A stretch of DNA of 64,000 nucleotides, taken from NCBI GenBank assembly GCA_964036295.1, contig OZ038462.1, forward strand, positions 8,139,267 through 8,203,266, given 5' to 3'. Source of the DNA: Plumapathes pennacea. Lineage: Eukaryota; Cnidaria; Anthozoa; Antipatharia; Myriopathidae. Below the pieces are notes generated by a model. The model was not told the DNA's origin and did no database searches. It worked only from the letters and a program-made list of their open reading frames with translations. The position numbers and the translations under genes were made by a program. Shown in pieces: positions 24,675 to 63,148 of the stretch (positions are counted from its first letter, which is position 1; each line of letters begins with the position of its first letter).

Positions 24675-24887
24675 ATGAACATGAAGATTTTCATTTGCCT
24701 GCTGCTGGCCTGCATGGGCAACATTAATGCCCAAAAAATCACTTGTTCTGGGCAGATTGCTGGAGCATCATGTGTTGGGGCCAACCAGTGCTTGCCACCT
24801 AACACATTGATAACAATTGGACCACCCCTGTGTTTGGGGAAGCAAGTATGCTGTCTGAAAAAGTCACCAACAAAAAAGTCAACTTAA
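24675..24887 (+). CDS. Beta-defensin-like secreted cysteine-rich peptide A
   Basis: A 70-residue frame from ATG 24675 to TAA. Residues 1-19 form a signal peptide (MNMKIFICLLLACMGNINA); cleavage before Gln20 leaves about 51 residues. The mature part has six cysteines spaced C-X8-C-X5-C-X13-C-X5-CC, with GASC before the second cysteine, IGPPLC before the fourth, and a lysine-rich tail (LKKSPTKKST). Spacing and the G-x-C feature match beta-defensins and big-defensin C-terminal domains, which kill microbes by membrane or cell-wall action. That function is inferred. A conserved acceptor (ctgtacAG) lies 9 bases upstream of the ATG, so an intron in the 5' UTR is likely. AATAAA-like signals follow at about 24920-24935. 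Paralogue at 62930. Another six-cysteine family cannot be excluded without structure. Confidence 0.75.
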   Translation: MNMKIFICLLLACMGNINAQKITCSGQIAGASCVGANQCLPPNTLITIGPPLCLGKQVCCLKKSPTKKST

Positions 24888-25015
24888 AACTATACTCCAC
24901 AGTTCAATGTAAAGGCAAAGTAAAATAAAATATTGGCTGGTGAAACAAGTAGACATTTCCATTTGACTTATCCTTCTCATGTAGTGCAGGTTATGTGGTT
25001 CTTCCTCTTCTTTTG

Positions 25016-25235
25016 TTAACCCTTTCACTCCCAATAGTGATCAACTTCAATTTTCTCCTTCTCAGTTTCTCACCAGAAGTATATCATACAGTAAGGAGAA
25101 CTTTGCTTTTGATACCTTGTTCATGTGAAAATTGATTAAACTATCAATTCTCACTACATCACTTATACATTTTCCTCCTGAAGGGTAAGGAGAATCTGTA
25201 TTTGAGCTTGGAAGTAATGGCAGAGTAAAAGGAAA
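25016..25235. mobile_element. TTAA-flanked MITE, copy 1
   Basis: Begins ttaaccctttcactcccaat and contains gatcaacttcaattttctcc and tatatcatacagta. The right end (gagcttggaagtaatgg) is decayed. Family members are at 27900, 33908, about 38690 and about 50475. Confidence 0.7.
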
Positions 25236-25649
25236 CTCCTTCCGACAAAAAGTAGTAGTGCAGTACATTACATGATTGTCAATGAGGAACTTTTTGTTGT
25301 GATGATTTTCAGTGGACCAATGGAGACCAATTCACGCTCACTAAATCTGGTTTGACAAACACGCAAACTGCCAGCGATTTCTGCTGGTCAGCACTTGTAT
25401 AGTTTTGAGGGCTTTGTGAGGCAATTGTCACTTTTTGACAAAAGTTGAGGTTTTCCTTTCTCAGCAGGGAGCTAAATTAGTAATTCATCCTGCTGGGTTA
25501 GGCTGTTTACTCGTGAACACATTTATGTTTATAATATACAATATCATCCTCTCCTGCTTCGACATCAGAAGTTTCAGGAAATAATAAAATATGTTATTCA
25601 TGTTTCATTTCAGAGCCTTAATAAGAGTTCAGATTTAAAGGCTACAATG

Positions 25650-27015
25650 TATATGAAAAGTCAAGTGATAGAGTGAAAACATTGGTCTTTCAATTACCTT
25701 TTGTGGAACATGCTCAATCATACTGTAAATATCAAAATGCACAGACAAATGTAGTGCATAGATGTGAAACTTCAAACTATTAGATAAATGTTGCTAGTAT
25801 AAAAGACATGCAACATTAAAGATAACAGCTACTAATATTACAGTACTGTTGGTGGTAGACTAACTGATGACATTCCATGAAAACACACCACATGCATTAA
25901 CCACTTCCTAAAATAGAAAGGGACTGCCAACTAATCCAGAAATAATGCATTTGGCAAAGTTCCATGCACAGTATAAAGGTACAGCCCCAAGCATCAATAA
26001 ATCTACAACTGCCACCACTTTCTTAAACTGCTTCAATGAATTGAAGCAGTTCAAAAGTGTATGATTCTAAAAAGAGGTTTGTAAGATTTCAACCACAACA
26101 AGAAAATATATTGAAATATTGTTCAGCTCAACAACTGCTTACCTGATAAGTAAGCCATGCTCTCCCCCAAACTACCTTCTGTGCAAATTCATGTAGGTGT
26201 TCTTGTAACAATTATAATTTTTCCACTTCCACACTTTAGTAAAGCTGTTCTTCAGTGTCTGGTATTCTCTGTTGAGAACAAGGAAAGATGAAGATTAAAA
26301 TAACGTAACTCTTTATGCAAAACAACAACAATGTACTGCTTTGCAAGAATTGATCTTGGAGGACAGGAGATTCAACTGCACCACACACAAGTTTGCAGGG
26401 CTATAATTTGTGATCACACTCTAAAGTGCAACAAAATCCAGCAAAGATGGGAAAGGAGTGTGGGGGAATGTAACACCTTTTTCAGAAGCCACTTTTGTGA
26501 TTGTTTTCCTATATGTGTAGCAGCTTCATTGTTCTTAGGGTTACGGTTTTTGCTTCGTTTGTCTAAGTTTTGTTTCCTAGCTAGGGGGGTCTTTTGTGAT
26601 TGCTTTCCAATGTGTAGCAGCTTCATTGTTCTTAGGGTTAGGGTTTTTTGCTTGGTTTGTTTAACGTATTGTTTCCTTGCCCAGTGAGGAGCAACTGTAG
26701 AATACCGGGCCACAATTCTACGAAGCAAGACAAACAAACACTGTATTGTTATGGAAAGTAGTGGCCCGGTATCTGAAGTTTACCTAAATCTTATCATAGT
26801 GGAAAAATAGCGTATTCTTTAAGAGACTCATCATATGAAGACTGCCAGGTTTCTCCCTCACCTTGGCCAACGGAGCCGCTGTTATTTTCTTGAAGTTCGG
26901 CAGTGCACCGCACGACACATCCAAACAACGCACATGAGTGAGACCGCTGACCTGACATGAAACGATTCGAATTTTGGCCGCGCGAAAACTGGGATGAGCA
27001 AAAATCGAAAAACTT
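25650..27015. repeat. Duplicated intergenic block Q (partner at 18250-22230)
   Basis: Shorter copy lacking the four insertions of block P. It has an internal direct duplication at about 26486-26680 (gcagcttcattgttcttagg twice). No gene. Confidence 0.65.
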
Positions 27016-28678: not shown

Positions 28679-28680
28679 TT

Positions 28681-29349: not shown

Positions 29350-30157
29350 ATGGCTGGGTTAGTAAGACCCGTCGTGTTCTCCGCTTGTGTTTTCGCTGCG
29401 CACTTCAATCTTCTCCGAGCGTGAAGTTCTGTGCGCTAAAGGACTGACAAGGAACTTTGAACTAGGACTCGCTTATGCGAACTTTGTTAATCACCAGTTT
29501 CACTATCTCAACGTTAGCCAAGTCGGATCATATTTGGTGCATACACTCAGAGAATGCGGTGACGCTTGCGTTTACAATGTTTCTTGTTTCTGCTTCAACA
29601 TGGCGGCACATCCTGACATAAACGGCCATTTTCTGTGCGAGCTTCTGGCCTCTGATAAGCACAACATGTCTGACAACTTCCAACCAAATCCTTCCTTCAA
29701 CCATTACAGTATCTACGTAAGCTGCCTTCTTTATTTTAAGAAGATCTGCTAACTTGCTTTGTATATATAACGTGAAGGTTCTGCTAATTTCTTGCTATGT
29801 GATTATATTCATTGCTGGGAAAAAGTGAATTCACAAACCTTCTATAATCCGAATTTTTGCAGACTCCTTGTTCCGACAGCCCCTGTATGAATGGAGGCAT
29901 GTGCATCGCTTTGTATTTTCATGACGACTTCAAGTGCAAATGTCCTGCAGGATTCGGATCATTATCGCTAACTGGTCACAGAACCTTATATAAGAAACAG
30001 AGCAACATATATAAAAACAGCCTGTATGTAAGAATGTCATTTTATATAAGCACTCCTAACACTGGGCGGAACGATTTAAATCTAGAAATGAACGTTACTC
30101 TAAATGATTCTCATAAGAAAGCCAATTTTCAAAGGAGAAAAATGCAGTGAGAAAGAG
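29350..30157 (+). pseudogene. Locus 3: broken signal peptide-PAN-EGF fragment
   Basis: ATG 29350 starts [19 protein letters not shown] as in loci 4 and 5. Four extra bases (aatc, 29407-29410) shift the frame to TGA at 29422. Downstream the PAN frame is intact to the donor after 29716. The EGF exon starts at 29863 (TPCSDSPCMNGGMC ... KCKCPAGF) and is split by about 172 bp (29956-30127) before FKGEKC resumes. No cbEGF or FReD exon follows before locus 4. Translation from an internal start would lack a proper signal peptide. Confidence 0.8.
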
Positions 30158-34132: not shown

Positions 34133-35320
34133 GTGACATAATATGTTAAGCAAGCTATCAAATGCCAAGTTCTCCATACTGTATGATTTATCTCTAGCAG
34201 GGAACTAAAGGAGAAAACTGAAGTTGATCAGGAGTGAAAAGAAACTGACCTTCATCGATTAGATCGACCGCTAAAAACTGCACTCTGCAAATTTCCATGC
34301 ATTTACAGGAAACTTTCCTGTTGAATAAAACAGAATTTTGAGTCAGTATGCTCGTAAAACTAGAATACAAAACATGAACATGATCAATTATTTACAGGGT
34401 GTGGGAGTTGTATATTGAACAATTAAGCTCTAACTACAGTATGGAGATCCAGCTAATGGAAACACTGTTTACAACATACATGCAGACTTAATATGATGTT
34501 TTGAATATACAATCATGTACCGGCTGCATCAAAAGGTTTTAGTTTAATACTTTATATTACAAGTCAAATCCATGACCGCTGGTCAATTTAAGTTTGTTGC
34601 TTAAAATATAGAAAATTTAAGAAAATAAAAAACAAAATCGTACTTTCAGCTGGCAGGGGAATAAATGCAAAATTTGAAGTTGACCAGGAGTGAGAAGCAA
34701 CTGAACCAACTTCTACCGATTAGAACGATTGCTATAAATATAAAATACTGCATTCCATCTGAAAATTTCCATTCACAGGAATTTTTCTGTGTTGATTAAA
34801 ACCTCGCGTGGTATAAACATTACGCTCGTGAAACTAAAATACAAAACAGGATCAATTATTTACAGGCCGATGTGGGGGACATATTGAGCAATTATAGGCT
34901 TAAACACCACAGCATGCCGAGAAGTCCAGCTAATGGAATACTGTTTACAAACATACATGCAGTAATATTATGTTTTGAATGTACAGTGCGGCTACAGGTG
35001 CAGAAAGATAATTTGCTTTATACTACAAGTCAAAACCCTGACATCTGATCGATAGTTTGTTTATTGGACTAAAAAATGAAAAAAGAAAAGAAATACAATT
35101 AAATCGCAAATTGTTGCCGTCGTCTCCGCTTCAATATTGAAAAATGTCGTGTGTGATTTGTTGAGATGTTTAACAATGTTATAAGTGGCACAATCTGCGA
35201 TCCCGTAGTAAAGGAATAAACTCTCTTCTCCTCTCTTATTAGCTAATATTCAATTGATTGACACATGGAAGGCGGTAAAAAAGGTATCTTCACCTCCAGA
35301 AGTTCAAACTTTCGTTGGTT

Positions 35321-35683
35321 ATGGCTGGGTTAGTAAGACCCGTCCTGTTCTTCGCTTGTGTTTTGGTCGTACACTTCTTTTCCAAAAACGAAGTTCTGTG
35401 CGCTAAAGCACTATCAAGGAACTTTGAACTGGGACTCGCTTATGCGAAGTTTGTTAATCACCAGTTTCATTACCTCAACGTTAGCCAAATCGGATCATAT
35501 TTGGTGCACACACTCCGAGAATGCGGTGACGCTTGCGTTCGCAGTGTTTCTTGTTTCTCCATCAACGTGGCAGCACATCCTGACATAAACGGCCATTTAC
35601 TGTGTGAGCTTCTGTCCTCTGACAAGTACAACTTGTCCGACAAGTTCGAACCAAGTCCGTCCTTCCACCATTACAGTATCTAC
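35321..35683 (+). CDS. Locus 4 exon 1: signal peptide and PAN domain
   Basis: ATG in ggttATGGct, 121 codons, ending phase 0 before GTAAGT. The signal peptide [17 protein letters not shown] is followed by [13 protein letters not shown], then the PAN core [16 protein letters not shown] and LLCELL. Confidence 0.87.
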
Positions 35684-38600
35684 GTAAGTTGCCTTCTTTG
35701 TTTTAAGAAGATCTGCTGACTTGCTTTGTATATATAACGTGAAGGTTCTGCTAACTTGAAACTATGACTCCTATAGCATTGAATATATATATATATCACA
35801 TAGCAAGACTCTTGCTATGTGATTATATTCAATGCTAAGGAGTCATAGTTTCTGCTTTTGTATTAGTAGGAAAAAGGAAATTCACAAACCTTTCCTGTAA
35901 TTCGTATTTTTGCAGACTCCTTGTTCCGACAGGCCCTGTATAAATGGAGGGATGTGCATCGCTTTGTATTTTCATGACGACTTCAAGTGCAAATGTCCTG
36001 CAGGATTCAGAGGAGAGAAATGTGAGATAGGTAAGTTTGTTAAACTAAAAATACCGGCATTCTAATAGCAGTGTCCACTTCCAACTTCCGAACTGTCAAA
36101 TGAATCCTAAAGGTGTGACTACTCAAGTGAAAGCTGGCTCAATCGTCATGATAAGAAAAAACTTTAAATGACTGAAATAGTACAGACGTATTGCGCAAGT
36201 AGTAGTAAAATAACGACAAGGAGCTTTCTATGTAGGATTGAACAAAAAAGAGACTGAAACCCCTTCTCGCTCTCAGGAAAAAATTCACCAGCTGTCGTAA
36301 CTAAATAATAATAGGAACTTTCAAAGCAATTACTTTGAAAACCCAGGCCACTTGTGATTGTTATTGAACTGGCAATGAAATATCATCTAAAACCTTGTGA
36401 GATTTCGCGGTTTCTTTCGATTTTCGTTACTTGTTTAGATGCCAGTTGTCGATTATATGTTTTGAAATATCGGCTTAGCTGTGAATGTGTAAAACCTGAG
36501 ATTTCATCACCACATTATGTTAAGCCTGTTTACACACAGTATCATGTGCGATTTGCGACGAAAATTGGCCAGGGCAGGTGAAAATTATGAAAATGAAAAT
36601 TTAAAGTTTATTGACTTCTCAAGTGTAAACGACACTTTGTAGCCGATGCATATCTTGTAACTATCTATCAAACTGCGAAGAAGACGTTCTCTTGCTCTGG
36701 CAAGACTTCCTAAAATTTGCAATTATCTTGTCGCGAGTTGTGTTCTTCGAGCCAACTCAAGCCAAGTTTGCAAAACCAGAACTTGTGTGCGGGTTGCGAA
36801 AGGGAACCCTGAAACGTCGAGTTCGGACTCGAATTAAACTTCGGGTTGAAAACAAAAAAAAAAGAGGGGCGTGGGGAGAGATATACTCAGCTGTTTTTTT
36901 CGCTCCTGGAGGTTTGTGATTATTTCACGCCTTTGCCGCCTAACACTGTGTTCAGCCTTGGTTCAGCCCACTGTTAAAGATCTTTGTTACAGGTTTCCTG
37001 GTAACGTACGAATGGATTTACTAAAATGGGGTTCAATGACTTAAAAGAACTTCAAAATTATAATTAAAAAAAAATGTCAAAAATCCCCTAAAAAGCCATT
37101 AACGTGCAGCGCGCGGGAAGTCAAGGTTTGCTAATTACCACGGCACATAAGGATAATTCGAAACGCTAGTAAACATTGTTCTCCAAATATGACGCAAGTC
37201 AAGGTTATTTCATTAACAATTTACAAAAACTTTACCTAGCATTTCGATCATGTTGTAAAGCTTTCAAAACAGCACTATTTCGCCCAGAATCAAGTCAAAA
37301 CTTTAAGGTACATTTCATATTATACACGGGCTTCAAATCTAGTCATACTAAAAGGGCTTGTAAACGATTCTCGTTGCAATCACCGCGTGTCAGATCACAT
37401 AATTTCTCGAGCAAACAGTTACAGTTCCAACCCGACAAAAATTATTAGTTCTTGAATAAAAAATTACATTTTATCCGCGATTACAGTGTGCAACGAAACA
37501 CGGCAAGAAACTTTTCAAGCATTTCCATGTGTCAAACTGTCGAACAGCGAAATTGTGCAAAATGGATGACAACGGTTATCTTGCAAGCACACTCGATTTG
37601 AAAACTAGCGAAAAGGTCACAATATAATCATACTTGGCCTTCACTAAAGTTCCCGGGGACATCAAACGACAAAATATACGGCGATTGTTGAAAAAAATAA
37701 AATAAATAAAATAAATAAAATAAATCACCGGTTCATGATAGTCGTAGTTTTAGCTCTTTTTAAGCAAGCGAAACTAAACCCCAAACATTATCGTCTACGT
37801 TATCCTTAAGTGATATTGAAATATAGAGCAGCCCTCATACGGTTCAAAAATTCCAATCTCCATTGCATCGCCCGCGGCGGTCTTGTCAAAATTTGGATCA
37901 ACCTGTAAACGGTCAAACGGTGAAATTTGCCACGGTGATTATTCGATTTCCACCGAATGTATCATTACTTGTCCTTTCCGAAGAAGTATGCGAGTTCTAA
38001 CACAATCTTGGCGTCTGGGATTGTGCTCAGGTCAGCTCCAGCCTTTAGTCCGATGCCTTAAAGAAATCGTTTCATTTACTTTTACGGCTAGCAAGCTTGC
38101 CTCTCATGCGGGACGTTTATAGCTTGCCATTGTATCAACATTTTGTTGTAAAATCGTTTCCATCGGTGCTCTGTGGTTTCTCATTTCAATGAACTGCTTA
38201 GCAACCTCGCCTGGAGGTCGTATAATAGACAGACTTACGAACTCCAGCTTTGGAGATGGCGACCCGCTTGGAGTCTCCAAATAGCGCAATACTACAGCAT
38301 TAGCGTCGTGATTATTACCCTCGCAGAGCTCGGGGATTACACGAGAAGTGGTGCAATATGGCTGTATTTTTACTCGTCGTCATAGGAGAGAAATGTGAGA
38401 TAGGTAAGTTTGTTGAACTAAAAGTACTGAACTTCTAATGGCAGTGTCCACTTCCAACTTTCGAACTGTCAACTGAATCCTAAATGTGTAACCACTCAAA
38501 TGAAAGCTGCCTCAATTCATAAGTACATGATAAGAAAAACTTTAAACGACTAAAATAGTACAGACGCAAGCAGTAGTAAAACATGTTTTGTCGCGTGAAA

Positions 38601-42806: not shown

Positions 42807-42840
<34 letters not shown>

Positions 42841-43800
42841 GTTTTGTTGCTCAGCCATTTTTTCTTAATGCCAAGTATTATAATTCAACACGTAGATATT
42901 GACGAATGCACGGAGAATACACACAACTGCTCTGCAGACGCTACTTGTCAGAACACCCAAGGTTCGTTCAACTGCGAGTGCAACAGTGGTTTCCTGGGAG
43001 ATGGCGTGAGTTGTAATGGTAAGTATAACGGCATACAAAAACCCTCACCCTACCCCCCGTGCAAATTCTCTACTCCCGATTGACTGGCTTTCGTTTGTTT
43101 TCTTTCTTTATCATTAATTACAAATGAGTTTTATGTGTTCCCCCCTCCCCCCTTAGAAAATGCAAGAGATTGTTCAGACCTGTACAAAGCCGGCATCACT
43201 AGAAGTGGCGTATACTTTGTCAGTCCTGACGGCAAAGGAACTTTCCCAGTTTACTGTGACATGACAACCGACAGAGGCGGCTGGACAGTGTTCCAGAGAA
43301 GACAAGATGGCTCCCAAGTCTTCTACCTAGAATGGAGTCAGTACAAAGCGGGCTTTGGACAGCTGACGGGCGAGTTCTGGTTAGGAAACGATAAGATCCA
43401 CCGCTTGACAGCCAGCAGACCGAGCGAGTTACGAGTGGAGCTAGGGGACTGGAGCGGAGGCAGAGCTTATGCCAAATATGGCAGTTTCAGAGTTGGTGAT
43501 GAGCAGTCGCTGTACAAGCTGAGTGTGGGCTCGTATTCAGGAACAGCGGGAGACTCTTTAATAGTGTATAACAACAACATGAAGTTTTCTACCAAGGACA
43601 GAGATAATGACGCATATGGTAGTGTAAACTGTGCTGTGCTACACAAAGGAGCCTGGTGGTACAAACATTGTCTGCCCTCCAACCTGAACGGACAGTACCT
43701 GGGAAACAAGGTGAATGGTAATGGAGTCTGTTGGCATAGCTATAACAGCAATTATCTTTCCATGAAGTTCGCCGAAATGAAACTGCGTCCGACAAATTAG
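35321..43800 (+). CDS. Locus 4: PAN-EGF-cbEGF-cbEGF-FReD secreted lectin-like gene
   Basis: Five exons, 35321-35683, 35916-36030, 42648-42770, 42896-43018 and 43157-43800, join without frame breaks to 455 residues. Order: signal peptide and PAN (121 codons), EGF, two cbEGFs, FReD. The long second intron (about 6.6 kb) has collected a truncated EGF exon, a Penelope-like fragment, Helitron-like sequence and a MITE. A 18-nt echo of the EGF exon end (ggagagaaatgtgagata) occurs at about 38386, so part of the intron is itself duplicated. The likely role is extracellular recognition of sugars or cell surfaces, inferred from the domains. Of the loci here this one has the cleanest reading frame. Confidence 0.83.
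35758..35852. repeat. 95-bp inverted duplication (hairpin) in intron
   Basis: Left arm gaaactatgactcctatagc...cacatagcaag; right arm cttgctatgtg...gctaaggagtcatagtttc. The right arm matches the equivalent intron of locus 3 (about 29793-29818), which lacks the left arm. Confidence 0.8.
35916..36030 (+). CDS. Locus 4 exon 2: EGF-like domain
   Basis: Phase 0 in (tttgcAG), phase 1 out (GTAAGT). Reads [27 protein letters not shown]. Confidence 0.85.
37880..38384 (-). mobile_element. Helitron-like end region, copy 1 (tentative)
   Basis: Shares cgcctggaggtcgta, gagatggcgacccgcttgga and gtgattattaccctcgc with 40880-41520. The second copy encodes an arginine-rich region typical of cnidarian Helitron helicase leaders. 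Confidence 0.4.
38690..38880. mobile_element. TTAA-type MITE fragment, copy 4
   Basis: Matches the family interior (tttctcaccagaaaaatatc, cttgagagtgaaaggg). The left end is diverged. Confidence 0.6.
40975..41520 (-). mobile_element. Helitron-like fragment with Arg-rich ORF (tentative)
   Basis: Minus-strand frame 41008-41310 ([13 protein letters not shown] ... [20 protein letters not shown] ... [14 protein letters not shown]) resembles the RRAEETPEQR-type leader found near Helitron helicases. No helicase is present. The border tatccccgag...ccctcgcgg is shared with the copy at about 38300-38345. Confidence 0.45.
41755..41785 (+). pseudogene. Truncated cbEGF exon
   Basis: After atgtcAG the frame reads [10 protein letters not shown] and ends where Penelope-like sequence begins. 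Same EGF subtype as 5210-5323. Confidence 0.7.
41785..42469 (-). mobile_element. Penelope-like retroelement, 5'-truncated, GIY-YIG domain
   Basis: An open minus-strand frame runs 42458 to the stop at 41988-41990 (about 156 codons). It contains [20 protein letters not shown], then [14 protein letters not shown], the GIY-YIG endonuclease signature of Penelope elements, including the CxxC zinc-binding pair. The reverse transcriptase is missing. After the stop come ccgctcaggtagtcgaaacg-type terminal sequences (minus strand) typical of these elements. A T12 tract marks the junction at about 42459-42470. Confidence 0.85.
42648..42770 (+). CDS. Locus 4 exon 3: calcium-binding EGF
   Basis: 123-nt phase-1/phase-1 exon between cacacAG and [30 protein letters not shown]. 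Followed by a (GTT)n run at about 42807-42842. Confidence 0.87.
42896..43018 (+). CDS. Locus 4 exon 4: calcium-binding EGF
   Basis: 123-nt phase-1/phase-1 exon between cacgtAG and [39 protein letters not shown]. Confidence 0.87.
43157..43800 (+). CDS. Locus 4 last exon: FReD-4a
   Basis: Phase-1 exon after cccttAG, ending TAG. Complete FReD with [25 protein letters not shown] (Gly to Arg in the usual GGGW), [24 protein letters not shown]. It has an extra cysteine at NGVCWHSY where paralogues have Asn or Arg. Confidence 0.92.
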
Positions 43801-49410: not shown

Positions 49411-49773
49411 ATGGCTGGGTTAGTAAGATCTGTTCTGTTCTTCGCTTGTGTTTTCGCGGCACACTTCTTCTCCGAGCATGAAGTTCTGTGCGCTAAAGGA
49501 CTAAAGAGGACAACTGGAGTGGGATTTTCTTACGCGAATTTTGTTGATCACCTGTTTCACTACCTCAACGTCAGCCAAGTCGGGTCATATTTGCTGCATA
49601 AACTAGAAGACTGCGCTGCCGCTTGCGTTCGCAGTGCTTCTTGTTTCTCCTTCAACGTGGCAGAACATCCTGACATAAACGGCCATTTTCTGTGTGAGCT
49701 TCTGGCCTCTGATAAGTACAACTCATCTGCCAAGTTCCAACCAAACCAGTCCTTCAACCATTACAGCATCTTC
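49411..49773 (+). CDS. Locus 5 exon 1: signal peptide and PAN domain
   Basis: 121 codons, phase 0 out before GTAAGT, the same length as locus 4 exon 1. Signal peptide [20 protein letters not shown], then PAN with [16 protein letters not shown] and FLCELL. Confidence 0.88.
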
Positions 49774-52700
49774 GTAAGTTCCTCTTTGTTTCGTTTTTAG
49801 TTTCCATTTTAGTGCAGAAAAATAACTACTATTTTTAAACTGTTCAAACAGTTTGTAAAGTGCAAGTATTGTTATTAATACTCACATTTCTTGCCACGCG
49901 TAATAATATTTTTCAATGCGCAGTTTCGTTTTTCGGTTGGTATCAACTCGGTCGGCGTAACTTTAATTAAATTGAATTTTGCAAAATATAACGGAGTCAA
50001 AATAGGTGTCGGCTCTGTACACGGAATCCTTGTTGCTCAGGAAACAAGCGAGCATAGAAGACAAACAAACAGTGAAGTGATGACATTTACATTAAAAAGG
50101 GTTATTCGTTCTTCTTTCTTTCAGAGTCCTTGTTCTGAGATGCCCTGTATGAACGGAGGGAGATGCATCGCTTTGTACTTTCATGACGACTTCAAGTGCA
50201 AATGTCCTCCAGAATTTAAAGGAAAGAGCTGCAATATCGGTATGGCAGGTCTAGTTGGTAACGTATAAAATTTTCGCTACTGATTGCGTGCTAGTTTGAT
50301 TGAACGTGTATCAGAACAAGTTTCTAATTTGGTACGACAGCAATAAGTCGGTAAAAAAATGACTTGAAAAACAAGTTTTGTCGCGTGAAAACGCAACAGA
50401 TGCTGGGATTCAAGTTTGGTGTGGCAAGTATCTGCACGCACCATTAGATTTCTTTAATGAGCAATCTCTGGACTAGAGCGAGACTCCCAAGAGTGATCAA
50501 CTTCAATTTTCTCTTTCAGTTTCTCACCAGAAAAATATCATACAGTATAGGGAACTTGTCTTGACACCTTCCTCAAATGAAACCTGATTAAACTATAAAT
50601 TATATTAACAACACTCGTACATTTGCTTCAAAAGGTTGAGAGGATCTACATTTTGAGCCAGGGAGAGAAAATGTCGGCTAGCAAAGAAAACAGTAATGCG
50701 AGACTTATCTCATTTCATGCATAATTAATTTTGACAGTTTGACTTCGAACATTGGTCTTAATCACAGGGTACGATTAATCTAGCCTGCGCTTCATTAGTT
50801 ATCTGTTTTTCTTCTTCCAAAATGCATTTCTTCTATCAGGAATTCTTAATTTCCAGTCGGCTTGTTGTAATTTACAGCTATTATCACTGCGGTTTTGGTA
50901 AATTCACGGTAGTTTAACAAGCGTTTGTTAAAGTTGGAAAAACCCGTGACAGGCGGGAACGACTTTAACTTGTCGAAATGTTGCTATCGTTTGATTATGT
51001 TTGCTTTGCTTCGCTTAGTTTTAACCAAAAATAATAATAAAAAATGTACACAACTGGAAAAAAAACTGCGAAAGTGAATATAATTAAACAAAAACCGCAA
51101 GAGCGCAAGTACATGTCAACAAAAATTTCACGTTACATACTTGAAACTCAGCCAAGAAAAAAAGGCTTCCACACCACTTGCGGTGAACATTACCCAATGA
51201 AATTATAGTATTTTTGCTTGCCCGTCAATCAAACTTCAGAATCCTAGAGGGGGGATTTATTTTACCAATTGCCATGATACCTACGCTTTGGCTCTCGAGT
51301 GAAGACAATTCTATACTGGGCCCTTAGACCCTGCATAATAATATGTAATTGCAATTGAATTTACACTGAAGAAGTGACCGAACAGCAGTGTGACGCTATC
51401 GCCACTTGCGTATTTCCGCGAGCAGATCGTAATCGGGTTTTACTTGATCTAAAAAGGCCTCGTTCGGATGAATCCACAATCCTAGTAAACGCCAAAAAAA
51501 GTAATCACGCAACTACGTTCGACATTCTAGCCTGTGTAGCGGCTTTCCCGGGAAAGGGAAGAGAGGCATCCCCCTCCTTCTCCCCATTCCGTTCACGTTT
51601 GCGTTCGCGCTCGGATCTGACCCCTTCCCCTTCCCCGGGAGAGCTGCTACGCAGGCTAACATTTATTCAAAAGTCGATAATCAAAGGCAAAACAAGTTTT
51701 GGAAACGTGAACAGAAACGTTTTCATGATATTTGAAAATCAAATTGTATCGTTAATCAAATGAATATTTTCTTCAATCATCACGCATATGTGGACGAGTG
51801 CACAGAAAACAAATACAACTGCTCTGCAGACGCTACTTGCCAAAACACCCAAGGTTCCTTCAACTGCAAGTGTAACCATGGTTACCAGGGAGATGGCGTG
51901 AGCTGTAATGGTAAGAACTGTATATTCTGTATATTCTGTTTTCTGCTTCTTCTTCTTCTTCTTCTTTTTGTTGTTGCTGTTGTTGTGTTTTGTTGTTCAG
52001 CCATCTTTGATGTCACTTCAGAATATTTATCTTAATGCCAAGTATTATAATTCAACACGTAGATATTGACGAGTGCACAGAGAATAAACACAACTGCTCT
52101 GCAGACGCTACTTGTCAGAACACCCAAGGTTCGTTCAACTGCGAGTGTAACAATGGTTACCAGGGAGATGGCGTGAATTGTATTGGTAAGTACAACGACA
52201 TACAAAAAGCCTCACCCTACCCCGTGCAAATTGTCTCCTCCCAATTGACTGTCCTTCGTTTGTTTTCTTTCTTTAGCATTAAATTAATATATAAGGTTTT
52301 GTGCACTGTTTTCCCCCTAAGAAACAAGAGATTGTTCTGACCTGTACCAAGCCGGCATCACCACAAGTGGCGTGTACTCTGTTAATCGTGACGGCAAAGG
52401 AACTTTCTCAGTTTACTGTGACATGACAATCGCCGGAGGTGGCTGGACAGTGTTCCTGAGACGACAAGATGGCTCCCAAGACTTCTACCTAGAATGGAGC
52501 CAGTACAAAGCGGGCTTTGGACAGCTGACCGGCGAGTTCTGGTTGGGAAACGATAAGATCCACCACTTGACAGCCAGTAGACCGAGCGAGTTACGAGTGG
52601 AGCTAGGGGACTGGAGCGGAGGCAAAGCTTATGCAAAATATGGCACTTTCGCAGTTGGAGATGAGACGTCGCTGTACGTGCTGACTGTGGGCTCGTATTC

Positions 52701-52956
52701 AGGGACGGCGGGGAACTCGTTAACGTATCACAACAACATGAATTTTACTACCAAGGACAGAGATAATGACAAGTGGAATGCAAACTGTGCTGTGAGCTAC
52801 ACAGGCGCCTGGTGGTATAACAGTTGTCTTCACTCCAACCTGAACGGACAGTACCTGGGAAACAAGATGGATGATCGGGGAGTCAGATGGTATCACTACA
52901 AAAGCAACTCTCTTTCCATGAAGTTCGCCGAAATGAAACTGCGCCCGACAAATTAA
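49411..52956 (+). CDS. Locus 5: PAN-EGF-(cbEGF)-cbEGF-FReD secreted lectin-like gene
   Basis: Exons 49411-49773, 50125-50239, [51788-51910], 52063-52185 and 52322-52956. With the bracketed exon the protein is 452 residues; without it 411. The bracketed cbEGF has lost its acceptor (catATGTGG where the paralogues have cagATGTGG). Both sides are phase 1, so skipping keeps the frame. The start context taccATGGct is strong. Otherwise the gene is intact and closely related to locus 4. Role inferred as an extracellular FReD lectin. Confidence 0.82.
50125..50239 (+). CDS. Locus 5 exon 2: EGF-like domain
   Basis: Phase 0 in (ctttcAG), phase 1 out (GTATGG). [27 protein letters not shown]. Confidence 0.86.
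50475..50675. mobile_element. TTAA-type MITE fragment, copy 5
   Basis: Equivalent to copy 4 in the parallel intron of locus 4: ctcccaagagtgatcaactt to tgagccagggagagaaaa. Decayed ends. Confidence 0.6.
51788..51910 (+). pseudogene. Locus 5 cbEGF exon with lost splice acceptor
   Basis: Coding content is intact ([22 protein letters not shown], 123 nt, donor GTAAGA). The acceptor dinucleotide is AT instead of AG (tcatcacgcat|atgtgg against tcatcacacag|atgtgg). The nearest phase-1 AG is inside the exon (gtgcacag|aaaac) and would remove the first cysteine. It is most simply skipped. Confidence 0.75.
52063..52185 (+). CDS. Locus 5 exon: calcium-binding EGF
   Basis: 123-nt phase-1/phase-1 exon between cacgtAG and [37 protein letters not shown]. 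Confidence 0.87.
52322..52956 (+). CDS. Locus 5 last exon: FReD-5a
   Basis: Phase-1 exon after cctaAG, ending TAA. Complete FRe[70 protein letters not shown]. The middle ([20 protein letters not shown]) is closer to the downstream b-type copies than to other a-type FReDs, which suggests gene conversion. Confidence 0.92.
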
Positions 52957-52986
52957 TAACTTTGATAGTGATAAACCGTATCAAAC

Positions 52987-53381
52987 GTGGACCTACAGGA
53001 CTGGAGCGAAGGCAAAGCTTATGCCAAATATGGTACTTTCGCAGTTGGAGATGAGACGTCGCTGTACGTGCTGAGTGTGGGCTCGTATTCAGGGACGGCG
53101 GGGGACTTGTTATCGTATCACAACAACATGACGTTTACTACTAAGGACAGACATCATGATAACAGGGGTGGTACAAATTGTGCTGTGCAATACACAGGGG
53201 TGGTACTGTGTAATTGTAACTGTGTAATTGTGCTGTGCAACACACAGGCGCCTCGTGGTACAAAAGTTGCTATGGGTCCAACTTGAACGGACAATATGGA
53301 AATAGCATGGGCAGCAAGGGAATCCGCTGGCTAAGCAGTATCAAGAAGCATTCGGTGATGAAGCTTCGACCGACAACTTGA
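52987..53381 (+). pseudogene. Partial FReD copy (FReD-5b)
   Basis: C-terminal FReD half, interrupted by an internal duplication of about 50 bp around 53180-53250 (aattgtgctgtgcaa twice) that shifts the frame. Confidence 0.72.
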
Positions 53382-53419
53382 CTTTGATGGAGATAAACGT
53401 TGCCCACTGATATCCGAGA

Positions 53420-53600
53420 TGTGCATGTCAGTTTCAGAGTTGGTGATTGGCAATCGCTGTACAGGCCGAGTGTGGGCTCACATTCAGGGACGCGGGACAC
53501 TCGTTGCGTATCACAACAACATGAAAATTTCTACAAACGACAAAGACAAAGACGGGGCGAAGAGTGATAACTGTGTGGGAAGATACACTGGCATTTTTGT
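53420..53600 (+). pseudogene. Decayed FReD remnant (FReD-5c)
   Basis: Same unit as 8130-8302, followed by the shared downstream block (53600-54455). Confidence 0.65.
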
Positions 53601-54455
53601 TCTCTTGTATCGGAAACAAAATAGAAAAGTGGGTACTATCTACAAGCTGGGCACACTACATGATCACTCTCTCCTTTTTGGGCTGGTATGAATATTTTTT
53701 CAAAATTTTACAGAATTTTCCAAAAGAGCCATCAGTTTTTCAAAACATATCAGGCTGGTTATGATTGATGTCAGTATCAAATATATGCTACACGATGTCT
53801 AAAGATATGTCGCACAGTTACTGAAAAGTATCAGCTTTATCGAAAAAATATTTTCGAAAAACCGGAAGGGGGCGGTGGCATCCCCTCCACCCCTGCTGTA
53901 AGTCGACATCACATTGACTTTAACAACAGCCATGACCCAACCTGAGATCAAAAGAAATTGTCTGTCAACCAATTGTAGTTTTCAGAAAAGTGGGTGGCCA
54001 AAAACTTGTCTGACATGGTGGAGTCACTGTGATGCCGATGAAGCAAAAGGCTTTGAACTCTTAAGTCTTTAATTGAGTTCGCACACCAATTATTACCATT
54101 ACAGTTTTTTGCCATAACTACATATTAATTGTTTTCCACGTATTTATGGGAAATGATTCATTATCATAACAAGTGAACTGTTCAGCAATTCAAGAATTAT
54201 TTTCACTTTCAATATAACTTTACATGGAAGGAGGGTGACCTCTTTAGAAGAGTATAGTAGAGCCATTTGCTCTGTTATTAGATATAATAGCAAGAAACTA
54301 CAGCACTGAAAAACTGAAAAACTGCAGGAAGAGACGCGAGTGCAAGGAAAATCGAATTCACCGCCAAAATAACTTGTCTGTCCGCCAGTTTGGTGTTTAC
54401 GCCCTAAGCGACCGCACGGTGCCTTTCAGACTCTTGGCAAGCGCTTGGCATGTAA

Positions 54456-54825
54456 AGGGGCCATGTAAACAGGGCCTAAATCGGTAATGGGTTTGATTAT
54501 TTGCCTAAATGTAAAACGCTTTAGGGTTGTCTGCACTTCCACTAGTTTTCTCAAAGGAAAGGATTAAGTCATGAGCAAATGTTTAACACCGTTCTGTAAA
54601 TATACTAAACTTGTGCAGGGCATGGGGGCCATGTAAACAGGGCCTAAATCGGTAATGGGTTTGATTATTTGCCTAAATGTAAAACGCTTTTAATTAGTGT
54701 TGCCTGCACTCCGACTAGTTTTCTCAAAGGAAAGGATTAAGTCATGAGCAAATGTTTAACACCGTTCTGTAAAAAGTATATACTAAACTTGTGCAGGGCA
54801 TGTGGGCCATATAAACAGGGCCTAA
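54456..54825. repeat. Minisatellite, locus 5 copy, interrupted
   Basis: Units near 54456, 54624 and 54801. The last is split by the 54826-59408 element and continues at 59409. Confidence 0.8.
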
Positions 54826-56052
54826 GAGCGAGTTTGTGTAAATATCACCTACGCCGTGCAGGGTAGAAAAATCAAAATTATCCAAACTTTGTCATGATGA
54901 AGGCTTAATGTATCTAGTTATAAAAATATAAGTTTTAGTTCGTTCAGTTTCTTATTTCATTTTTGCGGCAACAGTTCCTTCCCGGTGCTCTGCGAGAAGA
55001 CAAAATCGACCTAAAAATAATGCTTCCATTATCGGCTCTAATGGAAAAACTGGGATATAAACATTACAGCTTAAATTATGGCATGCGGGTGGGGTCTTTC
55101 CCGTATGCATAACTGTTGTCAAATGTAAATTTGATTCAAACCAAAATTTTTGACCGATTTTTTAGTATTAACCACTTTGAGCGACGTTTTCTCACGCGAA
55201 AAATATGCTAATTTCATCACCGAAAATCGCGTCCTGGTACATAGTTTTGCAATTAAAGACTATGTTCATCGGCAAAAGCAATGTTCCTTCTGTGATTCTG
55301 TGAAATAAAATCATGGGGTAAATGAAATGGTGAATTTTGGAAACGCCAAGTATACATGGTACTTGCACCCAAAATGTGACCTTGTGACCTTTGAAGACGC
55401 GTGACATTCGAAAACAATAACAATACGTGACCGCAGCATTATTTGGATTTTATGAAAGCGTTGTACAAATATCGCCTAGATTTAATGTAGAATTGCCAAA
55501 AGAGTGTTCAGCTGAAGATGAGACGGCAATTTCGCCCGAAAATGTTCTTTCTTTGATTTGACGATTTGGTGGTTCAAGTTTACAAAAGAAACTTGCATTT
55601 GTAACGCTTGGAATTAAAGTTATCTCTTATTTGATTTTGAATGAATAAACGGAAAGGGCCGATGTATCTGTTTTTATGTAGGTCTTTCTCACCTCAAAAA
55701 CGACGAAATTCGAGATTTGCCGTATTAGAAAAAATGCTTGATCAACCGCACGTGTCGATTTCATTTTATCGTTTTAGAAAGCACCAGTATCCCCGACTAC
55801 CAGTTATTTTGGTTCTATTTTCTGTCGAAAAATTCGTAGCTTTACAACTGTGTATTAACTGTCAACCTTATGTAATAGGATCACGTTCCGTGTAGTCACG
55901 TCCCATCTTAAGATTCGTGTTACTTCATCAATTTTATCTTTGTTTCCATTTATTACCGTATAAGGATTGTATTCTCTATTCTAGTTCGGAAACGCCTGGG
56001 AAATGCCTATGATATTTTGTAATGTTCGTAATCAATAGCCCTATTATTCTGT

Positions 56053-56655
56053 ATGTTACATCTATCCGTGCATCATTCGATCAGTTCAGAGTTAGACTTG
56101 GGTATTCCCTCTGTAAAGCCATTTTGCAGAATCTCGGGAATAAAGTATCTGCCATCTGCCCATTATTTGACAACATCGACGGGCTTAAGTCAGTGGTGGT
56201 CTTTTCGAAGCACCGTGGCTTCGTGTGGGTATTCTCAAATTGTTGGAGGAACTTGTGGCTCAAGTCCAGGCAATCCAGCAATTTCCCAATGCGTGATTGT
56301 TGGTGAGTACCGTAAAGATATCAAGGCGCATTTGAAAAGCCATGAAGTTCTGGACTTTTCCCTGGATTCAGAGGCGAGGCTCTTGCTGGCACGGGCAGGT
56401 AAATTATATTTTGTTGATTCTACGATTTCCGTTACCCCGGGCCCACTTGTTCAAAGCTCAGTTAGGTTAATCCTGAATTCGAAATGTTCCCATTTTGTGC
56501 GTGCAACGCATCTTATGATTACTGTACTTTTTTTCCAAGGTATTTTTGAGACAAGCAACGTTGTTCTTGTTGTCACGATGTGCCCACGGCACCACGACAC
56601 ATTTGGCATTAGATGGCGCTGCAACAGAATGAAGGAATTGCACGTGCCCGAGTGA
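56053..56655 (+). other. Unidentified open frame in left arm (mirror at 57681-58178)
   Basis: A 200-codon frame with no domain I recognise. Its first about 160 residues recur in the right arm with one visible change (MLHLSV against MLYLSV). Because the arms are nearly identical in DNA, the similarity is not evidence of coding. A donor-like tgattgttG|GTGAGT sits at about 56301. Confidence 0.25.
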
Positions 56656-56707
56656 GTGGACATCGCACAAGGCCGTGAAAGGAGACCGCGTGATAAACCT
56701 TGCTCAG

Positions 56708-56710
56708 TCT

Positions 56711-56864: not shown

Positions 56865-59408
56865 CTGAAAGACTCTTCCGGCTAACTCAAGTGCTGATCC
56901 CTGTCGCTTCACGTAAGTTTAATTCAAAGCAGCAAGGCAGCTGTCAGCTTGCGAATTTGAAAAAAGTAGTTTTGCGGGAGTAGGTATTATGCCATAATAA
57001 TATTACAAATATAATAGTCGGACTATTTTAAGGTCACATTTTAAAATTTTTAAATCTGCGAGCTAAAAAGTGATTGAGTAGGTGAACTTTATTGACAAAC
57101 CTTTTTTAAAAAGTTAAAATTAAATTTAAAATTATTATTAAAATTCACTATTCAAAATATCATTTTCAATTAAGATTATAATGAAAACAAGTGAATATAC
57201 TTCCCAGTATTATGACTGCTGCAAAAATCCCTTTCACTCTTGAGAATGTTCAATTTAGTTTTCGGTTCAGAGGTTATACTGGTTGAATATATATTAAAGG
57301 ATTTCCATATTTTCATTCCATAATATCATTTCACTTGAACAGTCTGAGGACGCAACCAAACCTCTGGCGGTGACCACGCTCAGTGTTAATGACTTTAATA
57401 CCTACTCCCACAAAACTACTTTTTTTCAAATTCGCAAGCTGACAGCTGCCTTGCTGCTTTGAATTAAACTTACGTAAAGCGACAGGGATCAGCACTTGAG
57501 TTAGCCGGAAGAGTCTTTCAGACTGAGCAAGGTTAATCCCGCGGTCTCATTTCACGGCCTTGTGCGATGTCCACTCGCTCGGGCACGTGCAATTCCTTCA
57601 TTCTGTTGCAGCGCCATCTAATGCCAAATGTGTCGTGGTGCCGTGGGCATATCGTGACAACAAGAACAACGTTGCTTGTCTCAAAAATACCTTGGAAAAA
57701 AAAGTACAGTAATCATAAGATGCGTTGCACGCACAAAATGGGAACATTTCGAATTCAAGATTAACCTAACTGAGCTTTGAACAAGTGGGCCCGGGGTAAC
57801 GGAAATCGTAGAATCAACAAAATATAATTTACCTGCCCGTGCCAGCAAGAGCCTCGCCTCTGAATCCAGGGAAAAGTCCAGAACTTCATGGCTTTTCAAA
57901 TGCGCCTTGATATCTTTACGGTACTCACCAACAATCACGCATTGGGAAATTGCTGGATTGCCTGGACTTGAGCCACAAGTTCCTCCAACAATTTGAGAAT
58001 ACCCACACGAAGCCACGGTGCTTCGAAAAGACCACCACTGACTTAAGCCCGTCGATGTTGTCAAATAATGGGCAGATGGCAGATACTTTATTCCCGAGAT
58101 TCTGCAAAATGGCTTTACAGAGGGAATACCCAAGTCTAACTCTGAACTAATCGAATGATGCACGGATAGATATAACATACAGAATAACAGGGCTATTGAT
58201 TACGAACATTACAAAATATCATAGGCATTTCCCAGGCGTTTCCGAACTAGATGAATAGAGAATACAATCCTTATACGGTAATAAATGGAAACAAAGATAA
58301 AATTGATGAAGTAACACGAATCTATAGGTGGGACGTGACTGCACGGAACGTGATCCTATTACATAAGGTTGACAGTTAATACACAGTTGTAAAGCTACGA
58401 ATTTTTCGACAGAAAATAGAACCAAAATAACTGGTAGTCGGGGATACTGGTGCTTTCTAAAACGATAAAATGAAATCGACACGTGCGGTTGATCAAGCAT
58501 TTTTTCTAATACGGCAAATCTCGAATTTCGTCGTTTTTGAGGTGAGAAAGACCTACATAAAAACAGATACATCGGCCCTTTCCGTTTATTCATTCAAAAT
58601 CAAATAAGAGATAACTTTAATTCCAAGCGTTACAAATGCAAGTTTCTTTTGTAAACTTGAACCACCAAATCGTCAAATCAAAGAAAGAACATTTTCGGGC
58701 GAAATTGCCGTCTCATCTTCAGCTGAACACTCTTTTGGCAATTCTACATTAAATCTAGGCGATATTTGTACAACGCTTTCATAAAATCCAAATAATGCTG
58801 CGGTCACGTATTGTTATTGTTTTCGAATGTCACGCGTCTTCAAAGGTCACAAGGTCACATTTTGGGTGCAAGTACCATGTATACTTGGCGTTTCCAAAAT
58901 TCACCATTTCATTTACCCCATGATTTTATTTCACAGAATCACAGAAGGAACATTGCTTTTGCCGATGAACATAGTCTTTAATTGCAAAACTATGTACCAG
59001 GACGCGATTTTCGGTGATGAAATTAGCATATTTTTCGCGTGAGAAAACGTCGCTCAAAGTGGTTAATACTAAAAAATCGGTCAAAAATTTTGGTTTGAAT
59101 CAAATTTACATTTGACAACAGTTATGCATACGGGAAAGACCCCACCCGCATGCCATAATTTAAGCTGTAATGTTTATATCCCAGTTTTTCCATTAGAGCC
59201 GATAATGGAAGCATTATTTTTAGGTCGATTTTGTCTTCTCGCAGAGCACCGGGAAGGAACTGTTGCCGCAAAAATGAAATAAGAAACTGAACGAACTAAA
59301 ACTTATATTTTTATAACTAGATACATTAAGCCTTCATCATGACAAAGTTTGGATAATTTTGATTTTTCTACCCTGCACGGCGTAGGTGATATTTACACGA
59401 ACTCGCTC

Positions 59409-60440: not shown

Positions 60441-60582
60441 TTTGAGTATATACGTACGACAAAAGTTCCTCTCCCGTCACTGTACTATGACGCTACAAGC
60501 GCACTGGCAACGGGTCAGTCTTATTATATTGCTAAATCGTAAATATCGCCCTCAAAACACTAGCCAAATTGACTAAAACAAA

Positions 60583-60598
60583 CCCCCCCCCCCCCCCC
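60583..60598. repeat. C16 homopolymer
   Basis: Run of 16 C. Confidence 0.9.
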
Positions 60599-60879
60599 TC
60601 ACCCGAAGGAAGTTGGATATTGGATCAAGGGCATGAAGAAACACAAATTCAATATGATCGGGAGGGGGGCGAAGGGGACAGGAAGTCTCATTGATAATAT
60701 TTTATTGCAAAAGAACGAAACTTTCCAACACTTTTGACCACGATTGCAAATTAATACTTTTAGCTCCTGTAAGAGCTACGTGTTCGTCTGTGTCGGCGAA
60801 GCCATGAAACAAGAATGGACAAACGCGAGGTTGGGGTGGGTACGTTGAACACCGTGAGACTACACATTCTTTGTGAAGT

Positions 60880-62929
60880 GCCACAGATCTATAGAAACCT
60901 CACGTTCATGCATCAGTGCTGAATCTACTTAAAATATCACATGACAAGTTTAGAACAATAGTGTACCATTTTTGTGTCAATCTTTTTCTGAAATATCAAC
61001 CAATGGCGTGCCAGCCAAAGCTCAAGAAAACATCTGATCGCGTTTCGTTTTCAGCACCGCTGGCCCGACCTCGGAAGAGCCGACGCACTCAAGAAACTCT
61101 GAGTAACAAAGCAACCCAAGCGAAGAAGACAAACGTAAGCATTTTTAAACTAAACGTTCGGAACTTTTTAGAGAGTGTTGCTCGTCATTCTTTGGCTTCG
61201 ATTTCAACAGCAGTGATCCTTACAATAATTGTTAAACTTTACTTAGCAGGAAGACTATTCAGGCGTCCTTGTATAGCCAGATAACATTAAACAAAATCCT
61301 GAATTCTGTGCAACTAAAATGTAGGCACGAGAAATTCGTCTGATAATCTCCGCGTTTTCTGTTCACAAGTAATAGCTGGCTCTCCGAGGCTTTCGCCTCT
61401 TAATATTATCACTAATATTATAATTTTATCATTGATGTTTTGTTACTACAAGGGATGGTTTTCAAGCAAATTATTTCAAAGAGGGCCATAGCTCTCAAAA
61501 CATTCCCGTAACTCTTAGCAAAGTAATAATTTTCTTAACTTTTGACTCACTGACAAACCGAAAAGCGACAACGAAATAGATCTCATTTTCATTGCAAATG
61601 TCATCTCTACAATTTTACTTTACAAAAACGATGCTCAGTTTTCTCTTTAGTGTTCCGTTGCCTTGTAGTTAACATTTAAGACCACACGCTCGATTTTTAC
61701 TCAAATTAAAAAGAAAGAATATCGAAGTTTAGTATAGCAGGAAACGGCAACTCTGGTACTAAATATTCTCAGTTCTGGCGGAGGCGGAGGTTAACCGACA
61801 TTCACGTCTCGTTTAAAGCTGAATTCATGCGAAAAGCAACCTAAAACTCAAACCTATAACCCTAAAAAGATATGCTACAGTGCAAACAATGAACAACAAG
61901 AAAAAAAAAGCGACCTCTTTTTGAGACGTGTGAAGAGAGATGGCATCGGGTGTCCATAATGCCAAATAACTTCTCAGTTTTGAGCGGCAAATGTTATTCT
62001 TCTAGCCAGCCCCCTTCGCATATCCTTTTTACGTTTGTTCTATTGGGATTTCAAGTGTTCGCACCGCAAGACATCTAAACATGAAAAACGAGAATAAAAA
62101 CACTACAACACTCTATTTTTACATTTCGTTCAAATATATTGCACAAAAGAATAAGAAAGCTAGGAAGCCTGAAAAATAGTATAAAACCAATCTAGTCAGA
62201 CTACCTTAAAATGTCGTAATAAATAATTGAATAGGTGGGTCAAAACAAACAAATATACAATCTCACCGCACTTACGAGGGAAGCTGTAACAAGAGACGCT
62301 TCTTTATTATCTCCGAGGCTGTCGAATATGTAAATATAAAAATTTTAAAAGTGTCCTGTACTTGAGAGAATTATTTAGCTTTAGTTGCTCAGATTACAAT
62401 ATTGCTCTCATTGTCAAGGGACCTTTTATCAGTATTACACGTCAAGATCGAGATAGCTTTACTTACAGAATGACTGACAAACATTGAAAAACGAGATAGC
62501 ATTCCGATTATTACGCAGAGGTCGGAAATATACATGTTTGTTTTTTAATTTTTAATTAATTAATTTATTTATTTATACATGAATCAGTCATGTGTTAGTT
62601 CATAAACAAGTTCTTCTGCCCATCTATTGCAATGCAGATTACTTTGCTCTAATAAATGGGATACATTAGTATCATTGATACAAAAGCTCATCCGTCCATG
62701 AATTACGATAATTCAATATGTTCTGTCCAACCCCACGGAACATTTTCCCGACTTTCTAACAAGCCGGACTATTTAACTGAAGGAAATCACCCCTTATCTT
62801 CTTGTTCTGCACTCCGTTTATTGGAAACTTTTTCCATTCGATGCAAGTTAAGTACACACTTTCATAATATACTTTAACAGTCGATTAATACGTCAACCTC
62901 TTGTCCCTTTTTGCACAGTTTGGCAAAAT
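60880..62929. other. Upstream region of defensin-like gene B
   Basis: 60880-61410 matches 22565-23070 and 62757-62929 matches 24510-24674. The part between (about 61430-62750) has no counterpart and no recognisable gene. A 122-codon frame at 60916-61284 is broken in the other copy, so it is probably not a gene. Confidence 0.6.
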
Positions 62930-63148
62930 ATGAACACGACAATTTTCATTTGCCTGCTGCTGGCTTGTGTGGGCAACATTAATGCTCAAGTTGGCACTTG
63001 TTATCGGTATGGAGGAAGGTGTGTTGCGTATATCTTGTGCAGGCGAGGGTGGACCATATTGACAAGTGGACCACCCTTCTGCCCCTTACCCTGGAACCCG
63101 ATATGCTGTCGAAGACAGGTGATAATTGTGTTTTTGTTTTATTTCTAA
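62930..63148 (+). CDS. Beta-defensin-like secreted cysteine-rich peptide B (3' end uncertain)
   Basis: ATG 62930. Signal peptide MNTTIFICLLLACVGNINA, one residue pattern away from gene A. The mature part from Gln20 has six cysteines spaced C-X6-C-X5-C-X13-C-X7-CC, with GGRC before the second and SGPPFC before the fourth, and many arginines (cationic). After CCRRQ the open frame ends in a hydrophobic VIIVFLFYF that looks like intron read-through. A GT (cag|GTGATA) at 63118 and an acceptor (cctttcAG) at about 63180 could splice to a downstream exon. The gene A 3' UTR sequence reappears only at about 63829, so the original 3' end has been displaced. Expression unknown. Confidence 0.7.
   Translation: MNTTIFICLLLACVGNINAQVGTCYRYGGRCVAYILCRRGWTILTSGPPFCPLPWNPICCRRQVIIVFLFYF

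Follow-up and report, generated by a model that had tools for sequence, protein, structure and literature searches.

In beta-defensin and big-defensin genes alike, a phase I intron is placed at the 5' border of the cysteine-rich region (PMC7203481), and non-canonical big-defensin genes of Dreissena have lost this intron (PMC7203481). Avian beta-defensin genes usually consist of 3-4 exons with the 5' untranslated region (UTR) in the first one, and the peptides cover net charges from -2.9 to +10 (PMC4571063). The gene of magnificamide contains introns in the 5' UTR, in the propeptide and in the Trp codon that ends the mature part; this terminal intron is in frame (PMC10604346). According to a 2020 review, descriptions of big-defensin or other trans-defensin genes were lacking for Cnidaria and similar early-branching phyla (PMC7203481), and a 2024 paper states that cnidarian genomes are predicted to contain numerous defensin genes (PMC10945409). 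The fold class as such is well known in cnidarians from anemone toxins and inhibitors with a beta-defensin fold. Here we analysed a stretch of 64,000 nucleotides, the window (contig C1:8139267-8203266 of a 290 Mb assembly with 24 contigs; positions without a contig refer to the window), which contains two members of a six-cysteine peptide family, copy 1 and copy 2. We favor with moderate confidence the reading that this is a large and tandemly amplified family of secreted defence peptides of the trans-defensin type. As far as sequence and inferred gene layout go, it constitutes a new subfamily of trans-defensin-like genes. No description of the family was found in the open-licence literature searched; one could be contained in Mitchell 2019 or Leal 2022, which deal with cnidarian defensins.

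The two frames 24675-24887 (copy 1) and 62930-63148 (copy 2) were recovered with the translations given in the original prediction. The cysteine spacings reported there were also reproduced: C(8)C(5)C(13)C(5)CC in copy 1 and C(6)C(5)C(13)C(7)CC in copy 2. A loose six-cysteine pattern matched the window twice, and each match is preceded by a signal-like segment. Among 60 simulated windows with the dinucleotides of the window, the mean was 0.05 matches, none of them with such a segment; the pattern is not due to chance. The signal peptides of both copies agree at 17 of 20 residues, and the 5' parts (24512-24747 and 62767-63002) are 88.6% identical. The shared 5' acceptor and 3' UTR and the divergent loops of the mature part, all noted before, were confirmed as well. 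Stretches related to the 3' segment of copy 1 follow the type A copies on contig C11 (80-86%) and are also located behind copies C1-C3 (75% over 76 bases) and B1-B3 (80% over 49 bases). For copy 2 the start and the cysteines of the frame as first described hold, whereas its last nine residues and the stop at 63148 would result from reading through an intron, with the donor after CCRRQ between 63118 and 63119. Splice sites and signal ends were inferred in all copies by eye and script from genomic DNA. The spliced product of copy 2 is predicted to end with CCRRQ-WG-stop; its acceptor and terminal exon recur in the copy at contig C1:8275204 (locus L010). Use of another candidate acceptor, at 63180-63181, would lead to a different tail. 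Within the putative intron, 63565-63771 is 93% like 46970-46765, a repeat. A retrocopy origin of copy 1 was rejected because this copy keeps the end of the 5' UTR intron and the upstream DNA.

The description of the two frames as a pair had to be abandoned: the genome carries at least 28 copies, 7 on contig C1 and 21 on contig C11, and these frames are two of them. These counts are lower bounds from searches with six family peptides and from scans of 200 kb of contig C11. Contig C1 contains 7 type A copies, all on the + strand and spanning 201 kb; both window copies belong to this type. On contig C11, the region 12.45-12.63 Mb comprises 4 type A, 8 type B and 6 type C copies, and the region 10.18-10.20 Mb comprises 3 type D copies. 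A 29th copy at contig C11:12525460-12525711 looks degenerate and was excluded from the count. Many stretches of 1.5-7 kb recur on contig C11 with 86-98% identity, at spacings that include 25-29 kb and multiples. The copies form a tandemly amplified family of what are, by prediction, small secreted-peptide genes. DNA was read for 27 of the 28 copies, the type D copy at contig C11:10192228 being left out, and 21 distinct sequences were aligned; the seven omitted copies are near-duplicates. A family tree, in which 1 of 18 branches was starred, was not used.

All 21 distinct sequences show the order C-C-C-C-CC with six invariant cysteines and an open mature exon, and the non-cysteine positions are on average 23% identical. 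Six cysteines are present in the mature exon of 14 sequences, and a seventh one in the remaining 7. The spacing between the first two of the shared cysteines is 6-8 throughout; between cysteines 3 and 4 it amounts to 13 in the window copies and 9 in type C, and the other types bridge to 13. A glycine precedes cysteine 2 in at least 90% of the 21 members. With respect to the conserved residues the original prediction was only partly right, since the literal G-x-C is found in most sequences (15/21) and GPP before cysteine 4 in only 9/21. In one type A relative, at contig C11:12626852-12627172 (-), cysteine 1 is immediately preceded by proline-rich VPPTQVPPxLTV repeats with a KR pair; this stretch differs from the other members read and is present as a single copy according to a genome search.

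The gene layout points in the same direction as the cysteine order. In genes of types B, C and D, a short intron separates the signal exon from the mature exon, and the inferred donor stands directly after the CC pair. A phase-1 intron placed as in beta-defensins and big defensins, where the cysteine-rich region starts, was found in 15 of the 16 copies of these types that were read, and phase-1 splice sites on both sides of the mature exon in 14 of them; the two exceptions are B5, with a downstream donor in phase 2 (or a frame that stops at this point), and copy C4, whose signal exon is broken and contains an in-frame stop. Both window copies, like those of types B, C and D that were read, have an acceptor-like AG a few bases 5' of the start codon. 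In type A, signal and mature parts lie in one exon without an intron in between; loss of the intron is the simpler reading and would resemble the loss in Dreissena. Tail exons could be inferred for C1-C6 and B6-B8, with the ends CCYGV-stop in C1-C3, CCYGIS-stop in C4-C6 and CCDGCN-stop, CCDGCL-stop and CCAGCN-stop in B6, B7 and B8; the tails of B1-B5 are uncertain. Including the tail exon, B6-B8 reach eight cysteines and end with CCxGC. Copies C5 and C6 also have eight, one of them encoded in the signal exon after the signal peptide.

Compared with vertebrate beta-defensins such as Gallinacin-11 (PDB 6qet, 6qeu), the family shows the same cysteine order, the glycine before cysteine 2, the arrangement in gene clusters and the plan of 3-4 exons that includes a 5' UTR exon (PMC4571063). 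It differs in the position of the donor directly after the CC pair and in its scores below the PF00711 cut-off; the C3-C4 spacing is 9-13 here and 9-10 in the avian table rows (PMC4571063). Big defensins share the intron placement (PMC7203481) but possess a hydrophobic N-terminal domain, and none is present in the inferred exons of the family, in which cysteine 1 follows within about 10 residues of the signal peptide or, in the relative with the VPPTQVPPxLTV repeats, a proline-rich stretch stands before it. Three introns arranged like those of magnificamide were inferred for C1-C6 and B6-B8 and, without the middle one, for window copy 2. As predicted from genomic DNA, the family combines parts of the gene plans of beta-defensins, big defensins and magnificamide.

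A profile of the 21 sequences was searched against the PDB (177,635 sequences), and avian beta-defensin 11/Gallinacin-11 occupied ranks 1 and 2 (E=0.0045 and 0.035), followed by a Peptidase S74 domain protein (E=1.3) and crotamine (E=1.9). A control profile with shuffled non-cysteine residues, which was realigned and in which two cysteine columns lost perfect register, retrieved no defensin from the PDB and gave two unrelated matches (E=1.6 and 1.8). The peptide of copy C1 aligns over its full length to bovine beta-defensin 12 with E=0.27; one Gallinacin-11 domain aligns about as weakly (E=0.3). In a profile-profile comparison using hhalign against five defensin sequences, with 150 row shuffles and 150 loop-column permutations as nulls, the whole-family score of 19.6 was reached by no row shuffle. 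For type B, 0 row shuffles and 3 loop-column permutations reached the score, and for type C the numbers were 1 and 8.

Several results weigh against a defensin assignment or an antimicrobial role. The PF00711 cut-off of 21 bits was reached by none of the 18 mature peptides scanned; the best value was 13.0 bits for copy C1 at full length. PDB searches with copy 1 (P0001) and with the mature peptide of copy 2 alone yielded no defensin, a search with the copy C4 peptide gave no match, and a 10-member profile placed Gallinacin-11 last of five PDB matches (E=7.4). The whole-family score was reached by 17 of the 150 loop-column permutations and is not significant by this null; for the ten sequences of type A, the type of the window, 5 row shuffles and 31 permutations reached the score of that type. 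By these counts, the likeness to defensins stems mostly from the cysteine frame and the glycine before cysteine 2. Copies C1-C3 (contig C11:12519064, 12548251 and 12577300, -) and B4 have seven cysteines; the odd number hints at dimers or a free thiol in C1-C3, and that of B4 would become even if its tail added a further cysteine. The net charge of the mature peptides ranges from -5 to +7, so that they are not uniformly cationic. With +6 and +5, copy 2 and B1 would suit an antimicrobial role, and B6 and B7 (both -5) would not; because of this range the term antimicrobial is unproven, and an immune role is what we infer. In addition, pooled pN/pS (nonsynonymous to synonymous differences) of 7 pairs was 1.15, or 1.22 without cysteine codons, and not significantly above 1 (p=0.17). 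Some pairs also lack a contrast between exon and flanks: the mature part of copy 2 (P0002) differs from that of its near-copy L010 by 0.8%, less than the signal part (5%), the upstream regions of L004 and a12453 are 36-45% different from most other type A copies, and the region downstream of B3 is 37-42% different from those of B5 and B6.

Copy 2 with its signal peptide matched PF00711 at 17.6 bits, and we rejected this as proof of membership because the match is lost once the signal peptide is removed. One genome match exceeded the cut-off (contig C2:32201292-32201378, +, 21.9 bits); it was rejected as a relative because its 59-amino-acid frame lacks the CC pair, and it is probably due to chance. 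No Pfam cut-off was reached by the peptides scanned, with weak sub-threshold matches to zf-P11, Cys_Knot_tox, Tsg and a spanin family, and NCBIfam returned nothing for the five peptides scanned. A beta-defensin-like peptide is the best reading of the cysteine order and the putative gene layout. This part of the original prediction is partly supported, by these two features and the profile match; the Pfam cut-off was missed and type A fails the stricter control.

In many pairs the mature exon is hypervariable compared with its surroundings. Between B6 and B7 it differs at 25 of 116 sites, whereas upstream, signal, intron and downstream parts together differ at 3 of 379 (p=3.5e-14). For the window copies the values are 45 of 114 aligned bases in the mature part and 21 of 220 in the flanks (p=2.6e-10), the downstream part being omitted as not homologous. 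Eight other tests on mature exons or their synonymous sites pointed in the same direction (p 3.7e-18 to 0.0068); in all these tests counts were rounded, pairs share copies and are not independent, and pairs and flanking parts were picked after the table had been seen. The comparisons B5-B6 and B1-B4 cover upstream and intron only. Synonymous sites in the mature exon of B6 and B7 are also raised (4/26 versus 3/318, p=0.0008). The speed differs between neighbors: in comparisons among the type C genes located about 3 kb from B6-B8, 5-7 of 114 sites are different, compared with 25-27 of 116 in B6-B8 (p 3.5e-5 to 5.5e-4; 5.5e-4 for C5-C6 versus B7-B8, without the broken C4), and the mature peptides of C1-C3 are identical. 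The diversifying change proposed earlier is thus seen as hypervariability relative to the flanks in the pairs tested; pN/pS could not serve as proof of positive selection, and selection on amino acids alone is not shown because synonymous sites are raised too and the ratio is not significantly above 1. Either gene conversion acts on the flanks, homogenising them without touching the exon, or local exchange or mutation alters the exon.

According to the favored reading, the peptide would be secreted and would fold into a three-strand disulfide core, the beta-defensin fold with disulfides 1-5, 2-4 and 3-6. It may act outside the cell on microbes, with membrane or cell-wall targets, and paralogues that are kept different might jointly cover changing targets. 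A more far-reaching version is tentative and, in our view, rather doubtful: if the genome is cnidarian, the family would be a true trans-defensin lineage with the bilaterian cysteine order and phase-1 intron, predating the cnidarian-bilaterian split and diversifying by an exon-limited process. In such a process the mature exon, bounded by phase-1 splice sites, would be released or protected from the homogenisation by which signal exon, introns and UTRs stay alike, and one duplicated segment could therefore carry both fast-evolving type B and slowly evolving type C genes. A family with this cysteine order and intron would allow the age of beta-defensins to be tested through gene structure, and type B and C genes that change at different speeds within the same duplicated segments offer a natural experiment on the diversification of exons for defence or venom peptides.

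The same fold could serve another task, and the peptides would then be enzyme inhibitors of the helianthamide/magnificamide type or SCRiP-like venom peptides directed against digestive hydrolases or ion channels of prey or competitors. We regard this as unlikely, yet as a serious alternative. Helianthamide and magnificamide are small secreted beta-defensin-like peptides, and the introns of the magnificamide gene are placed much as inferred here (PMC10604346, PMC6835510); the predicted end CCRRQ-WG-stop of copy 2 can be compared with the intron in the final Trp codon of magnificamide (PMC10604346). Acidic and neutral members would fit an inhibitor. SCRiPs have the frame C(6)C(6)C(7)C(5)C(6)CCC with eight cysteines, which comes close to that of the family if their cysteines 4 and 8 are removed (PMC10892658), and B6-B8, C5 and C6 reach the same number; the first coral SCRiP, Mfav-SCRiP1, was found in 2009 with the PF00711 model (PMC2652719). 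Ueq 12-1, grouped with SCRiPs in our comparison, keeps three disulfides that match those of beta-defensins, plus others (PMC5450702). Against this alternative, CCC is absent from all 21 sequences, most of which have six cysteines in the mature exon. The alpha-amylase contact motif YIYH is likewise found in 0/21, which speaks against the predicted peptides being standard amylase inhibitors. Helianthamide was not among the PDB matches at E up to 10 with P0001, the mature peptide of copy 2 or the 21-sequence profile, although its structure exists (PMC6835510). The pattern CXC-C-C-CC of the BDS/APETx group (PMC11509556) does not agree with the wider spacing of the first two cysteines in the family.

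Many secreted proteins have a phase-1 intron near the signal cleavage site, and the phase-1 gene plan is for this reason support and not proof of a defensin origin. It would also be compatible with convergence, in which an unrelated cysteine-rich family with its own fold arrived independently at C-C-C-C-CC and the gene layout is the one common to small secreted peptides. The permutation counts given above would agree with such an origin, and so would the C3-C4 spacing of 13 in the window copies, compared with 9-10 in the avian rows (PMC4571063). We nevertheless consider convergence improbable, as the top PDB matches of the 21-sequence profile are defensins and the type C spacing of 9 is bridged to 13 within one family. 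That the copies are mostly pseudogenes, relics amplified with the surrounding segment and diverging neutrally in the mature exon, is hardly credible: pN/pS near 1, the signal-exon stop of C4, a TAA near the frame end of L002 and the degenerate 29th copy would suit this, but all 21 sequences retain six cysteines and an open mature exon despite their low identity elsewhere, and in many pairs it is the mature exon that has changed most, with far fewer differences in signal exon, intron and flanks, which is the opposite of neutral decay.

Table 1. Predicted parts of the two peptide genes and fibrinogen-domain frames in the window
Feature	Position	Strand	Remarks
Copy 1, end of 5' UTR intron	acceptor AG 24662-24663	+	ctgtacag/TTTGGCAAAATATG; counterpart in copy 2 ttgcacag/TTTGGCAAAATATG
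Copy 1, exon	24664..24887	+	signal peptide 24675-24734, mature peptide 24735-24884, stop
Copy 1, coding end and 3' UTR	24872..24980	+	96.3% identical to 63819-63927 (copy 2)
Copy 2, exon	62919..63118	+	signal peptide 62930-62989; mature peptide VGTCYRYGGRCVAYILCRRGWTILTSGPPFCPLPWNPICCRRQ 62990-63118; phase-0 donor CAG/GTGATA
Copy 2, inferred last intron	63119..63772	+	in frame to 63148; yields the C-terminus of the earlier frame
Copy 2, inferred terminal exon	63773..63927	+	TGG GGA TAA (WG-stop) and shared 3' UTR
Fibrinogen_C domain (PF00147)	7073..7711	+	E=9.5e-77
Fibrinogen_C domain	14128..14784	+	E=2.9e-79; Ig and collagen frames upstream (11719-12471, 13455-14117)
Fibrinogen_C domain	43084..43800	+	E=2.2e-75
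Fibrinogen_C domain	52321..52956	+	E=4.8e-78

The surroundings of the two copies had been called a lectin gene cluster. Four open reading frames (ORFs) with Fibrinogen_C domains as well as collagen/Ig, EGF and PAN domains are indeed present in the window, and the lectin label is putative. The blocks 2813-9833, 14150-17114, 42514-46033 and 51601-54825 contain EGF-like and fibrinogen-domain ORFs and are 86-93% alike; they are a recently expanded cluster of predicted fibrinogen-related genes. A search of viral contigs for fibrinogen domains gave nothing. Three similar ORFs are located at 29366-29752, 35279-35719 and 49393-49800, and in two cases an EGF domain follows at a short distance downstream. 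One of the three matches PAN_1 (E=9.3e-5), and the other two have no Pfam match at E<=0.001. A near-perfect palindrome (54826-56710 and 57520-59408) has arms of about 1.89 kb that are 99.0% identical and a spacer of about 0.8 kb; it is either the product of an inverted duplication of recent date or an effect of assembly. A GIY-YIG domain fragment at 41988-42479 (-; PF01541, E=2e-5) is presumably part of a Penelope-like element. A longer and similar copy of this fragment lies inside the peptide cluster of contig C11 (12540059-12542400, -).

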